Both the position numbers and the translations under genes were made by a program. A stretch of DNA of 64,000 nucleotides from Bifidobacterium merycicum DSM 6492 (GTDB taxonomy: Bacteria > Actinomycetota > Actinomycetes > Actinomycetales > Bifidobacteriaceae), in assembly GCF_900129045.1 (NCBI RefSeq), contig NZ_FQTX01000002.1:62001-126000 (forward strand). The letters run 5' to 3'. This document shows, in pieces, positions 56,942 through 64,000 of the stretch. The notes beneath the pieces are model-generated. The model was not told the origin of the DNA, searched no databases, and saw only the letters and a program-made list of their open reading frames with translations. Within the stretch, counting starts at the first letter, position 1. The number at the start of each line of letters is the position of its first letter.

Positions 56942-59770
<2,829 letters not shown>

Positions 59771-59794
59771 TTCGAGCGAAAACCGGCAGATGAA

Positions 59795-59838
59795 TGTTGA
59801 TTCGGTCGTTTTCAGCCCCGGAAACGACCGAATCAACA
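59795..59838. other. 17-bp inverted repeat after ligA
   Basis: TGTTGATTCGGTCGTTT (59795-59811) and AAACGACCGAATCAACA (59822-59838) are perfect arms with a 10-nt loop. No T-run follows. It marks the junction with the AT-rich lanthipeptide-like region and may act as a terminator. Confidence 0.6.
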
Positions 59839-59924
59839 GGCGATTAGCGGGAAGCGTCCGAATCGGCACCCAACTGCTGGTGGATTCCTGCTCAGCCTTT
59901 GGGAGTGCGGCTATTCTATGGAAT

Positions 59925-60710
59925 ATGAACGATCGTCAAGATTTCCGCATCCGCGTGGCACTGGTGGACAACGATGCCTTTACCTTGGACATGCTGAAGA
60001 TGGCCATCCCTCGCAGGAACCCACGGTTCGACGTGTGCTGGTCCGCGCGTAAAGGCACTGATGCCATTGATTGGGCTTTGGAACCTGTTACTATGCCGGA
60101 TATCTTATTGACTGACATGAGCCTTGAAGATATTAGCGGCGTAAGTGTGTGCAGGGAAATACGTCGAAGAACCGAGCAGGTTCCGTTGCTTGCTATCACG
60201 GCATTCTCGATTGACCGCTATGCAAACCGTGCCGCTGAAGCTGGTGCTCAGGGCATTATTCCTAAAGTCAATCTCAATGAACTTGTTGACTCGATTGATG
60301 TGATAGTCAAGCACGGCACATTGGGTATGTGCGGGAACATCGATTTTGTGGATGCGAAGACCGCGCATCAACGACTTGCGGAATCCGATATGTGCCCGAT
60401 TCAACGCCTATCGCCCACGGAGCAGCAGATTCTGACGCTTTTGGCGCAAGGCATGGAACCTCGTGATATTGCCGATATGCTGTCCATTGGTATCGGCACC
60501 GTGAAGACGCATATTATCCGGTTGCGCAAGAAACTGAATGCGCGTAGTACCAAGGAAGCAATGGCGATGTGGTGGAACAATGAACGATGGAATTCGAGAG
60601 GTTCTCACGGGGCTGAGGCAATGGTGCAGTGCGCGAATCCCATATATCCTCATAGCCGCTGCGCTCTATGCTTTGACTTTTTCGAATATCGCACTTGTGC
60701 TTCCGCTTGA
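59925..60710 (+). CDS. LuxR/NarL-family response regulator
   Basis: DNA-binding regulator of 261 aa. Receiver domain residues 8-130: acidic pair in VALVDNDAF (Asp15, Asp17), phosphoacceptor Asp64 in ILLTDMSLEDISG, Thr/Ala in LLAITAFS and Lys in GIIPKVN. HTH domain about 165-220: LSPTEQQILTLLAQGMEPRDIADMLSIGIGTVKTHIIRLRKKLNARSTKEAM. ATG 59925 is 7 nt after TATTCT (59912-59917), so it may be leaderless. The C-terminal 45 residues (after AMWWNN) run on past the normal HTH end and overlap the next gene by 131 nt, so the natural stop may have been lost. It pairs with the kinase behind it. Confidence 0.85.
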   Translation: MNDRQDFRIRVALVDNDAFTLDMLKMAIPRRNPRFDVCWSARKGTDAIDWALEPVTMPDILLTDMSLEDISGVSVCREIRRRTEQVPLLAITAFSIDRYANRAAEAGAQGIIPKVNLNELVDSIDVIVKHGTLGMCGNIDFVDAKTAHQRLAESDMCPIQRLSPTEQQILTLLAQGMEPRDIADMLSIGIGTVKTHIIRLRKKLNARSTKEAMAMWWNNERWNSRGSHGAEAMVQCANPIYPHSRCALCFDFFEYRTCASA

Positions 60711-61728
60711 TATGGTCCAGATTATCTATGCGGCAATTGCCATAGTATGTATTGCCGGAATAATCGTCATGCCCTTACCAGCATCGTTCGGTTTAGGAAT
60801 TGTCTCTATCATAGGTACGTTGCTGCCTATGACAGTGACGGTGCCGAACCCTTTGCTGACTTTATTCGCGGTACTTGGAATATTGGGGTATTCGTCCCGC
60901 CTGTGGATATGCCTGTTGATGCTCGCAGTTGAATCGGTGGGAGTCGTCATTATTCAGGTTGCATGGCATTATGACACGGGCATGGATATGTATGGTGTGA
61001 TCAATTCTCTGGCTATGCTCGGCTGTGCTTTTTGTTGGATATGCCCTGCGTTGGAGGAAGCAGGTTGATCTGAATCGCATCGATAAGATGAGGCTGGAGC
61101 ATCTGCAAATGAGGAATAGGATCGCCGCTGACATTCATGACTCCACAACAGCGAATCTGACTAAAATATCGCAGATTGCACAGCATAATATTCATACTGG
61201 TGGTTGTGAAAACCATGCTTGGTCTGATGTCAATCGTCTCGCTGTCTCAACCTTGCGGGATATATATAAGGTCATAGGTCTGCTCAGCAATGAGGATTCC
61301 AAGCAGATTATGCCATCGCATGGCACATTCATGGAGCACTTGGAAGATGTTACGGATACGGAAGATGCATTGCTGCAGAACTTAGGCTTTAGAGGGAAAA
61401 CGGAAATATCCGGAGTTGCCGAAGGCATATTGGTGCAGCAGGAAGATGTTCTGCTGTCGTTGATGAGGGAGATATATCGCAATATTCAACGGCACGGTAA
61501 TCCAAACGGAACATACAAGGTCGTTATCACGATAGGCAACGGTAGATTGCTTATCGCGCAATCCAATGAGATTCATCCAGTGAACGATTGGCATATTCCT
61601 CATGGCAGGGGATCCGACTGCACAACAAACAAATAGAGCTGCTGGGTGGGAAGATGCAATGCTGGAAGAAGAGCAGACAATGGCATCTGACGGTATGCGT
61701 TCCGCTGGTTAGCGAGTCGGAATCCTAA
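60580..61728 (+). pseudogene. sensor histidine kinase disrupted by two frame changes
   Basis: Three frame segments together make one NarX/LiaS-type kinase. Segment 1 (60580-61068) has about four to five membrane helices (IPYILIAAALYALTFSNIALVLPL and onwards). Segment 2 (about 61025-61636) continues in another frame with GYALRWRKQVDLNRIDKMRLEHLQ, the HisKA_3 box NRIAADIHDSTTANLTKIS (His in DIHDS) and N-box LLSLMREIYRNIQRHGN. Segment 3 (from 61606, -1 frame, to the stop at 61726-61728) supplies the G-box and end: QGIRLHNKQIELLGG and WHLTVCVPLVSES. The second break lies at CATGGCAGGGG (61601-61611). Either it is decaying or the assembly has indel errors. Confidence 0.75.
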
Positions 61729-61740
61729 GCTCGTGAGATG

Positions 61741-61893
61741 CTAATGATGGCACAGCCATGGCATGAATGAACAGGCCACATTGAGTCCGATATTCCCGGA
61801 ATCGGCGGATAGCGGTTGCTCGATTGTTGCGCAAACCAGGCAAATGGATAGCGTGACTGCAAGTACGGTATTGATTGTATGTTGTAGAGGCAT
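61741..61893 (-). CDS. small putative secreted/membrane peptide
   Basis: ORF of 50 aa opposite to its neighbours, in the 346-nt gap before the precursor gene. It starts at ATG 61893 with GGAG 7 nt upstream, and reads MPLQHTINTVLAVTLSICLV followed by CATIEQPLSADSG, i.e. a short hydrophobic signal-like segment, then a polar tail with MPWLCHH at the C-terminus. Small membrane peptides next to lantibiotic precursors often give self-immunity, but this identity is speculative and the ORF may be fortuitous. Confidence 0.35.
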   Translation of the reverse strand: MPLQHTINTVLAVTLSICLVCATIEQPLSADSGNIGLNVACSFMPWLCHH

Positions 61894-62010
61894 GGCACAG
61901 CTCCGTTCTTGATATTGACGACAGCAACAATGATATAAAGACCAGTCACGATACATAGTTCGTGTATTCCTCTGGAATACATGGGCGGGCGGTTTCTGTT
62001 GTGGGGAGCT

Positions 62011-62066
62011 TATACTGGCGGCGCTTCCGCTCCGGAAGCCACCTAATGGTGTGTTCGTCGGAGGAG
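62011..62066 (+). promoter_or_regulatory. promoter -10, leader hairpin and SD of the precursor gene
   Basis: TATACT at 62011-62016 is a near-consensus -10. A hairpin GCTTCCG-CTC-CGGAAGC occupies 62023-62039 in the leader, and GGAGGAG at 62060-62066 is a strong SD 8 nt before ATG 62075. A -35 element is not clear. Confidence 0.5.
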
Positions 62067-62074
62067 ACTCTGCT

Positions 62075-62284
62075 ATGAGCAATAAGGGTATTGATGTCGA
62101 TTCCATTGTGGGGGATGATTTTTCGGATCTCTCGCCTGAGGATATGGCCTTGCTGACCGGGCGTGGCAGCAACGATGCGGCCCCGCAGTCACTGTCCATT
62201 GCGGTTTCTGTTGACGTCACTGTTTCCGTTGCGATGTCTGTTGCATCGTATTTCCATGTTTCCGGAACGTGCAAGAAGCATTAA
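62075..62284 (+). CDS. lantibiotic-like (class II lanthipeptide) precursor
   Basis: Peptide of 69 aa. The N-terminal half is an acidic leader (DVDSIVGDDFSDLSPEDMALLTGRG), with the DLSxEDM-LTG pattern of class II LanA leaders and a Gly-type cleavage zone TGRGS followed by NDAAPQ, reminiscent of the NDVNPE hexapeptide of two-step processed leaders. The last 31 residues are rich in Ser/Val/Ala (SLSIAVSVDVTVSVAM to SGTCKKH) with seven Ser, two Thr and only one Cys near the C-terminus, resembling lactocin S. A modified core with one thioether ring and several dehydro- or D-amino acids is inferred. The context (regulators before, ABC-2 permeases after) agrees. Confidence 0.72.
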   Translation: MSNKGIDVDSIVGDDFSDLSPEDMALLTGRGSNDAAPQSLSIAVSVDVTVSVAMSVASYFHVSGTCKKH

Positions 62285-62303
62285 CCGACGACTGGTGAGA
62301 CTT

Positions 62304-62340
62304 GGGTGTCGCGGCATTGATATGCCGCAACACCCTTTCT
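62304..62340 (+). terminator. attenuator-like terminator after the precursor gene
   Basis: GGGTGTCGCGGCAT (62304-62317) pairs with ATGCCGCAACACCC (62322-62335), one mismatch, 4-nt loop, followed by TTTCT. A partial terminator directly behind a LanA gene is the usual way to keep precursor mRNA above downstream genes. Confidence 0.8.
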
Positions 62341-62352
62341 ATGGGGGTGTGC

Positions 62353-63033
62353 ATGAAAGCGCTGCTGTACAGGGATTTGCAGTTGTATAAGAAACCGAAG
62401 TATGCGAGTGTCTGGCCAATAGTTGCTCTTACGGCGATAATCATGGAAATCTGGCTTGGGGGGATGTATGAGGCCGGAGGGGACGACGTGATGACTATAA
62501 CCGCGAAGCAAGCGATGGTTGGGAGTGTACTGTGTGCAATGTTTTTCGAGTCAATATATGTAAATGCCAATCTTTTAGTTGAAGATAAGCATGTCGGTAT
62601 CATCAAGATCCTGCATCAATCGGGGCGTGGCATGAATTATTATTTACTGGAGAAAATAATGCTCGCCCTGCCTCCCAATCTGTTGTTCGCGTTCGTATAC
62701 ATTGCTGTCGGAATATATATGAAGCTTTTTTATCTGTCTGAGGTAATGTACCTATTGCCTACAATAGGCATAGCCTTTATGACATCGCTCACGGAATTAT
62801 CGGTTGCCAATATGCTGGTCTTTCGATTAAAGGATGGGACTGATCGAAATGTGGTATTTTTGGGACTAATCATTTGCGGATTGATTTGTATAGGTGTGGC
62901 ATTTGTTCCCCTATTTGGGTTTCCGGTGTGGCTGAGTGCTGCCATATTGATTGGCGTTGGTTTTGTGGCTTATCTATATACGTTTGTCACATATAAAACC
63001 GAATATGTGAAGACGATATCTGTTTTTGCCTAG
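62353..63033 (+). CDS. ABC-2-type permease subunit, lantibiotic immunity-like
   Basis: Membrane protein of 226 aa with about six segments (WPIVALTAIIMEIWLGGMY, MLALPPNLLFAFVYIAVGIYM, VVFLGLIICGLICIGVAFVPL and others). The N-terminus MKALLYRDLQLYKKPKY is the short cytoplasmic start typical of LanE/LanG or bacitracin-type ABC-2 permeases. No ATPase is seen in the window; it may lie beyond the right edge. The open frame begins at 62302, but ATG 62353 matches the start of the second permease (MIALLYRD). AT-rich codon use distinguishes it from genes left of 59.8 kb. Confidence 0.7.
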   Translation: MKALLYRDLQLYKKPKYASVWPIVALTAIIMEIWLGGMYEAGGDDVMTITAKQAMVGSVLCAMFFESIYVNANLLVEDKHVGIIKILHQSGRGMNYYLLEKIMLALPPNLLFAFVYIAVGIYMKLFYLSEVMYLLPTIGIAFMTSLTELSVANMLVFRLKDGTDRNVVFLGLIICGLICIGVAFVPLFGFPVWLSAAILIGVGFVAYLYTFVTYKTEYVKTISVFA

Positions 63034-63056
63034 TGCTGTATGGTGTTGGTGATTGT

Positions 63057-63717
63057 ATGATTGCGTTGCTGTATCGTGATTGCTTGAAGGCAAGAAAGTT
63101 TGGATTTGTCGCACTCGAGATATTGGGAATTTGCGTGACACTGGCAGTGGAAAGCACAATGTATGGTACATTGCAGCCAGTAATGGACGTGTTTCTCTCT
63201 TTCGTTTTGCCTGGGTTGTTGGTGACGATTTCTGTTTTTAAGTTGTCGTCTTTGGTTTATGGAGATCATATTTGCGATATAATAAGTTCGATTCATAGAG
63301 CGGGATATGGTATTTATGGATATCTTGTTGAGCGGTATGTGTTTTCTTTTTTTGGTTGTAGTGCCAATATATGCCGCTGATTTTATTTTTGGAGTATTGA
63401 AACATTGTTTTCATGATTATTCCATGGCAATGGCTGATGTGGTTTCTTTTGTTGTTGTTTCTTTCTTGGCTTTATCTGTGATCATGGTATGTGCCATCAA
63501 TTGTTCTGTCGAAGCAGATTCCCAGACATTGTTGCAACTTCTGATACTTCTGGTATCGAGTGGCGCAATGGCCTTGCTGATGCTTTTGCAATATGCTCTC
63601 ATACCGTTTTATGTATTCTGCATAGCTGCTGTTTTGGTGACACTATGCGTAAATATGATTATCGCGAGAAGAGAAAAAACAATATACTGCAAGACGCTTC
63701 TCATGCTGAGTAAATAA
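63057..63717 (+). pseudogene. second ABC-2-type permease, frame broken at a T7 tract
   Basis: A paralogue of the preceding permease: MIALLYRDCLKARKFGF, then GYGIYGYLVERYVF, then the frame ends at 63380. The other frame picks up immediately (FLVVVPIYAADFIFGVL) and runs through four membrane segments to the stop at 63715-63717 (IIARREKTIYCKTLLMLSK). The switch point is a run of seven T at 63347-63353; with six T the ORF would be continuous, about 219 aa. This is either slippage-based phase variation, decay, or a sequencing error. Confidence 0.7.
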
Positions 63718-63742
63718 TGTAATTCATTGAAGGGGATATGCT

Positions 63743-63931
63743 GTGGATATTGTAAAAAGTATGTATGCGGATACCATCGAAGAACGTTATTCGTTGATTG
63801 ATGACGATGGCGCTTCCGGTGATGATTCGTTTGTCGATTCTGTTATCAGTCAATGGATGTCGCGAAATTGCGCGTTGCGCCCCTATGATTTTGCCAGCAT
63901 GCTTGAGCTTCGTGGTTATGATAAGAAATAA
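63743..63931 (+). CDS. short ORF, possible start of a lanthionine synthetase
   Basis: ORF of 62 aa with a good SD (AAGGGG at 63730-63735) before GTG 63743. It reads MDIVKSMYADTIEERYSLID and then DDSFVDSVISQWMSRNCALRPYDFASMLELRGYDKK. The ERY...W...DF..ML pattern recalls the extreme N-terminus of LanM enzymes. The TAA at 63929-63931 ends it, but the same frame is open from there to the window end (YAKCIDGESFLKG and onward). A broken lanM would fit the locus; the resemblance is weak and the window stops too early to decide. Confidence 0.4.
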   Translation: MDIVKSMYADTIEERYSLIDDDGASGDDSFVDSVISQWMSRNCALRPYDFASMLELRGYDKK

Positions 63932-64000
63932 TATGCGAAATGCATTGATGGAGAGTCGTTTTTAAAGGGAAACAAGGACAATCTTTCTTCATGGTATTCT

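Follow-up and report, generated by a model that had tools for sequence, protein, structure and literature searches.

We found that the right edge of a 64,000-nucleotide stretch of the Bifidobacterium merycicum DSM 6492 genome (C5:62001-126000 of genome G000; hereafter the window) very probably holds the decayed remains of a class II lanthipeptide cluster that has spread horizontally, seated at the ligA-mrp site of Bifidobacterium. The locus is of an ordinary kind, a new member of the class II lanthipeptide clusters; it is dead here, and its intact and differently broken orthologues make the history readable. The first-pass annotation had proposed a partly decayed class II locus placed after ligA, and this was borne out by reading past position 64000 and by an intact orthologue in another species, with the decay proving decisive. 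We read 58.5-64 kb of the window plus 14 kb past its right edge (L001; window position = L001 position + 58000), identified genes by Pfam and NCBIfam profile searches, and predicted transmembrane (TM) segments. The genome (2.27 Mb, 15 contigs) is rated 100% complete, and the contig that holds the locus is 601 kb long, with the locus away from its ends. Three genomes of the genus served for comparison: G006 (another species, locus intact), G059, which is B. pongonis 64T4 and is listed with 8% contamination, and G004 (a related cluster). The drop in guanine + cytosine (GC) content noticed at first was real, with 46.1% in 59925-64000 against 62.5% in the rest of the window; the lowest-GC 4-kb stretch of the window (step 500 bases) begins at 60001.

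The precursor gene lanA (62075-62284, + strand, like all cluster features below) is open and encodes 69 amino acids (aa). The comparison with LanA families proposed in the first-pass annotation gave a match to TIGR03893 (lichenicidin A2/SP_1948 family, type 2 lantibiotic) with 65.2 bits (cut-off 32.95, E = 5e-18); the Pfam Mersacidin model matched below threshold only. The leader (...DLSPEDMALLTGRG) has its predicted end at LTGRG, and the 38-residue core behind it has 8 serines (Ser), 2 threonines (Thr) and 1 cysteine (Cys), in keeping with the Ser-rich, one-Cys peptide first described. The intact lanM cluster that occupies this site in G006 has a precursor 94% identical to this one. Hence, given this identity and the TIGR03893 match, the 69-aa open reading frame (ORF) is not a chance one. 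Among 112 genomes of the genus, a LanA protein search gave matches in four, namely the window's own, G006, G004 (two copies, 38 and 45%) and B. pongonis (a 19-residue stub), and TIGR03893 matched in three (a single time in G000 and in G006, twice in G004). When 297 genomes of the order were searched, in a sample evidently without G006 and G004, the sole match was the LanA of the window itself.

The orthologous cluster in G006 is complete. At the same site it encodes, in order, a response regulator (221 aa), a putative kinase (383), LanA, two membrane proteins (226 and 219), LanM (1036), a flavin mononucleotide (FMN) reductase (241), an ATP-binding cassette (ABC) ATPase (247) and a C39 peptidase-ABC exporter (761). 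LanM matched TIGR03897 with 807.8 bits, carries DUF4135 and LANC_like domains, and has CylM and LicM2 as relatives with solved structures; it also contains WCRG and LCHG, which we take to be the zinc-site motifs of LanC domains. The reductase matched PF03358 (51.7 bits) and its gene directly follows lanM, the domain and position of a LanJB. No second precursor was found in the G006 cluster by TIGR03893, which matched once. Hence, a LanA with a class II leader stands together with a LanM carrying DUF4135 and LANC_like domains, marking class II ancestry.

The copy in B. merycicum is broken at many points. The NarL/LuxR-type response regulator (lanR-like, 59925-60710; Response_reg and GerE by Pfam; 97% aa identity to G006 over 221 residues) is open, in a frame of 59673-60710, and has lost its stop codon, running 40 residues past the orthologue's end (about 60587). 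The putative membrane histidine kinase (lanK-like, 60580-61728) is a pseudogene, found by tblastn in three pieces relative to the open 383-aa orthologue and carrying two small frameshifting deletions. The response regulator and the kinase pieces noted in the first-pass annotation are thus real, the kinase as a putative one. Behind lanA, putative immunity permease 1 (lanE-like, 62353-63033, 86% aa identity to G006) is open, and putative immunity permease 2 (lanG-like, 63057-63717) is a pseudogene by tblastn and indel mapping, with one frameshift in a T run. Of lanM, the first ~97 codons are left (63743-64000, on to about 64032), with a premature stop after codon 62, and a ~2.96-kb deletion fuses this remnant at about 64032 to a reductase gene without its first 46 codons (lanJB, about 64030-64617). 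Farther beyond the window, again by comparison with G006, lie an ABC ATPase gene with one frameshift (64629-65371) and lanT, the C39 exporter gene, with an internal deletion of 1.03 kb (65390-66648). The lanM and lanT genes sought to the right of 64000 are therefore there, as remnants only, and lanA and permease 1 are the sole cluster genes that look whole. With these remnants and the LanA family match, neither of the refuting conditions set in the first-pass annotation holds as it was worded.

Between lanA and permease 1, folding and an inverted-repeat search found a hairpin (62304-62335, arms 62304-62317/62322-62335) that is more stable than expected (z = -3.2; 1 of 200 shuffles as stable) and is likely an attenuator or terminator. 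The first-pass annotation had called a terminator here; the hairpin stands, its T tail is weak, and it was not among the calls of the terminator scan.

A domain search gave no LANC_like match in the window's genome, which is not among the 18 of 112 genus genomes that have one. An intact lanM elsewhere in the genome was rejected on this ground. Hence, with lanM almost wholly deleted and no LANC_like domain in the genome, the name lanthipeptide locus is true of ancestry, not function. With six cluster genes broken (lanM, lanJB, lanT and those for the kinase, the ATPase and one permease) and the regulator stop lost, no modified peptide should be possible in this organism, as judged from its sequence. 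When seven flanking ORFs of G006 were compared with the window's genome, five gave a single continuous alignment (for ligA, 450 of 467 residues) and two were split near the 5' end, which we judged to be over-extended ORF calls. Hence, the damage is concentrated in the cluster, since flanking ORFs align mostly uninterrupted. General frameshifting in this assembly was rejected by this control, which covers seven ORFs only.

The cluster is broken differently in B. pongonis. There lanA has lost its first ~50 codons (184 bp deleted), and a loss of about 3.4 kb begins near codon 142 of lanM and extends to within the end of the reductase gene, leaving a 15-residue reductase stub; these breakpoints differ from those of the window's genome. 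An insertion of 1975 bp interrupts the lanT gene; it has two ORFs, one resembling a serine recombinase and the other TnpB, and on a reading of these ORFs it is IS607-like. Five genes keep a full-length open frame (those of the regulator, the kinase, the two permeases and the ATPase), so that this copy looks as an immune non-producer would, its immunity being putative. One cluster thus appears in three states: complete (G006), putatively immune non-producer (B. pongonis) and dead (the window). With an intact copy and two differently broken copies traceable in three species, gain, cheating and loss become testable.

The cluster here belongs to an island between ligA and mrp that also holds a nitrilase gene and, at L001 9822-10708, an HTH-nucleotidyltransferase gene with a HepT-like gene (by domain, of MNT/HepT toxin-antitoxin type). 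A search of 41 genus genomes, its own included, yielded 30 ligA loci. In 26 of the 29 other loci readable behind ligA, mrp follows within 1.5 kb, and tblastn found neither the regulator nor the nitrilase behind ligA in any of the 29. Hence, because the site is empty in other loci of the genus, the stretch from regulator to HepT is most simply explained as having been inserted between ligA and mrp. As a separate observation, mrp (L001 10835-12109) is on the opposite strand to ligA here, and in the 26 other loci with mrp behind ligA it is on the same strand in 24 and on the opposite strand in two (L072, L088); an inversion may have accompanied the insertion.

Palindromic repeats mark the junctions of this island. 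A repeat search found a perfect 17-bp inverted repeat with a 10-nt loop (59795-59811/59822-59838; strand not applicable), one of four related palindromic copies in 9 kb (window 59795-59838; L001 8703-8784, 9722-9764 and 10738-10815), which stand at the junctions ligA/cluster, cluster/nitrilase, nitrilase/MNT-HepT and HepT/mrp. Taken as single positions, the three copies beyond the window are at L001 8709, 9728 and 10773. A pattern built from these same copies and allowed two mismatches at most (more drifted copies would escape) occurred at four places in the genome, all in C5:121801-130805, one of them also matched on the other strand. G006 and B. pongonis also carry repeat copies behind ligA. 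Here the third and fourth copies enclose the MNT-HepT pair, which the aligned G006 locus lacks. Hence, the repeats delimit modules, and the lan cluster is one module. The first-pass annotation had taken the 17-bp repeat as a mark of the lan locus; the repeat is perfect as described, and as a lan-specific mark it was rejected, with related copies at every island junction.

Divergence between the species points to exchange. Between G006 and B. merycicum, synonymous divergence (dS) was 0.51 for ligA and 0.35 for mrp versus 0.09 for the response regulator, 0.08 for LanA and 0.10 for LanE. Between G006 and B. pongonis it was 0.075 for the regulator, 0.015 for the kinase, 0.07 for LanG, 0.04 for LanF, 0.01 for LanT and 0.19 for LanE, and between B. 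merycicum and B. pongonis 0.03 for the regulator and 0.23 for LanE. DNA identity between B. pongonis and G006 was 84-90% in three flank pieces and 94-99% in the pieces covering the cluster, which include some flank. That most compared cluster genes are less diverged than ligA and mrp points to exchange between species after their split and fits horizontal spread. A LanM search over 396 genomes of the phylum (E up to 1e-60) found none, in a draw without a positive control that is uninformative on origin; against plasmids it gave 186 records, none of which reached 60% identity, and the top-ranked one had 27%. Apart from this, permease 1 had a nonsynonymous divergence (dN) of 0.08-0.14 among the three species versus 0.006 for permease 2 (G006-B. 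pongonis), a patchy divergence that looks like recombination or diversifying immunity.

In its intact form, as in G006, the cluster would work as follows. In LanA, LanM would dehydrate Ser and Thr and, as the core has one Cys, form no more than a single thioether ring. The LanJB-type reductase would then reduce several of the remaining dehydroalanines (Dha) to D-alanine (D-Ala). Leader removal, with the cut predicted at or near LTGRG, and export would both fall to LanT, regulation to LanRK and protection of the producer to LanFEG. The peptide expected from the intact cluster is probably a lanthipeptide of the lactocin S kind, with several Ser-derived D-Ala and no more than one ring.

The reductase links this cluster to others. 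Its single solved relative at E <= 0.01, taking the G006 enzyme, was SP1951 of Streptococcus pneumoniae. On plasmids, tblastn with the reductase gave 20 records, including L. sakei and P. megaterium, and in both of the two regions that we opened the reductase gene adjoins lanM, near one or more precursors: it is directly behind lanM in the L. sakei lactocin S cluster and directly before lanM in the Priestia cluster, whose precursors both match TIGR03893 (43.0 and 40.3 bits). Relatives were found in 2 of the 112 genus genomes, one being the window's truncated copy (the 15-residue stub of B. pongonis was missed); among 396 phylum genomes, searched at E up to 1e-8, only the window's own had one, G006 being evidently outside the draw.

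The first-pass annotation had likened the core to lactocin S. This resemblance is suggestive, and the LanJB-type reductase found beyond the window adds weight to it, short of proof. Among 5000 shuffles of the core, 15 reached the real score against lactocin S in global and 83 in local alignment. Ser in the LanA core faces lactocin S positions 7, 11 and 19, where Ser presumably becomes D-Ala, and the G004 cores, from a cluster without such a reductase, have 4 and 2 Ser versus 8 here. The lactocin S cluster (Latilactobacillus sakei, L094) is alike in its Ser-rich core with few Cys and in lanM followed by a flavodoxin-family reductase gene, and lactocin S is reported to have three D-Ala encoded as Ser (PMC5808125). 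However, lactocin S has a different leader, two Cys, and a precursor without an NCBIfam match at E <= 0.1 (TIGR03893 included). The lanM-reductase order is common to both, whereas here two permease genes separate lanA from lanM, and the C39-type lanT here contrasts with an S8/S53 peptidase and another ABC exporter in the lactocin S region.

Three other systems are comparable. The lichenicidin A2/SP_1948-type locus of S. pneumoniae shares the precursor family TIGR03893 and the SP1951-type reductase, if SP_1948 and SP1951 lie in one locus, as we infer from the gene numbers. Two precursors, sp_1948 and sp_1949, are listed for the pneumococcal locus (PMC7595303), versus the one found in the G006 cluster. 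Pseudocin 196, a bifidobacterial lanthipeptide, is alike in being a class II cluster of low GC with a two-component regulator and ABC immunity genes; its GC is reported to be below that of the genome, and it is held to be horizontally acquired (PMC11305057). Unlike the cluster here, it has a lacticin-481/variacin-like core with three predicted rings and ten listed genes, two of unknown function and none named a reductase (PMC11305057). An FMN reductase also adjoins lanM for the LanJB lanthipeptides such as bicereucin (BsjJB) and carnolysin (CrnJ), as in G006, where a single precursor was found and the enzyme is a putative LanJB. CrnJ is of the LanJB type. The reaction expected of LanJB is Dha to D-Ala (PMC7268733, PMC11519912, PMC5808125).

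Several points weigh against a horizontally spread class II cluster as described or narrow it. By Pfam, the kinase is weakly kinase-like and the permeases weakly ABC-2-like: the HisKA_3 match of the kinase is below threshold (16.2 bits, cut-off 24), and its full-length G006 orthologue (383 aa) has no Pfam family, so that its identity follows from this match, the predicted TM segments and its place beside the regulator. Of the two ABC-2-type permeases first claimed, two membrane proteins stand (one open, one frameshifted), and the ABC-2 label follows from sub-threshold Pfam matches (weak ABC2_membrane_4 for permease 2), predicted TM segments and the presence of an ABC ATPase gene among the cluster genes; the predicted structure of permease 1 had a confidence (pLDDT) of 37.6 and was not used for a fold search. 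A 541-aa right-flank gene also has a low dS, 0.046 (G006-B. merycicum), and LanE is more diverged between B. pongonis and the other two. Hence, the recombination tracts neither end at the cluster nor cover it evenly. The LanA and lactocin S cores share 16 of 39 positions with a weak BLASTP E = 0.053, and G006 is a candidate producer only. Three small indels of the decayed copy sit in homopolymer runs and are possible sequencing errors.

These indels, together with the draft state of the genome in 15 contigs, could suggest that errors of assembly or sequencing have produced the deletions and that the cluster of this strain works. We consider this very improbable, as the locus sits in the interior of its 601-kb contig, a nonsense codon and two separate deletions on the kilobase scale are involved, the genome, rated 100% complete, has no LANC_like match, and the flanking genes are open. 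Hence, even with the homopolymer indels set aside, the decay call stands on the nonsense codon in lanM and the two large deletions. There is a similarly small chance that the locus was repurposed, with LanA and the LuxR-type regulator kept for signalling by an unmodified peptide pheromone. The lanA and regulator frames are still open, and the pneumolancidins of S. pneumoniae, reported to be autoinducers acting via a cluster-encoded kinase, are a precedent (PMC7595303); yet the kinase and exporter are broken here, the regulator stop is lost, and short genes remain open longer by chance. Least probable of all is a non-lanthipeptide bacteriocin of the plain double-glycine type that merely adjoins lan genes. 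A C39 exporter is present, and C39 exporters and GG-type leaders are also used by unmodified bacteriocins, but the peptide matches a LanA family, the intact lanM is the third gene downstream of lanA in G006, and the G004 relatives of the precursor are also near lanM.

A decayed class II lanthipeptide cluster thus being preferred, we advance a wider view tentatively, holding it possible if somewhat doubtful: a D-Ala-containing, at most one-ring bifidobacterial lanthipeptide would move between species as a module of the ligA island with its palindromic junction repeats, and a producer (G006), an immune non-producer (B. pongonis, which has lost lanA and lanM yet retains the kinase, the regulator and all three putative immunity genes) and a dead copy (the window) would be as expected from rock-paper-scissors bacteriocin dynamics. 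The intact G006 copy encodes a candidate lanthipeptide with D-amino acids, in a genus of gut commensals. Judging by the remains, bifidobacteria may acquire such antibacterial peptides and then lose them again; if true, recurrent loss would help explain the rare activity of bifidobacteria carrying such clusters. A survey reports bacteriocin genes in 64 of 501 bifidobacterial genomes and activity in 1 of 55 tested strains, and calls the reason for this rarity unknown (PMC11305057). Bacteriocin loci are few in two B. adolescentis surveys as well, with 6 of 148 genomes in one and 9 operons among 543 strains in the other. We recognised no paper on this cluster in the open-licence literature joining Bifidobacterium with lanthipeptide or lantibiotic, which is no proof of its being unpublished.

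The related cluster in G004 (L009 2598-2792 and 5902-6090) has two precursors that share a leader and a LanM with 38% identity. An FMN reductase was not found in it. By reading of the ORF, a transposase-like gene lies between the two G004 precursors.

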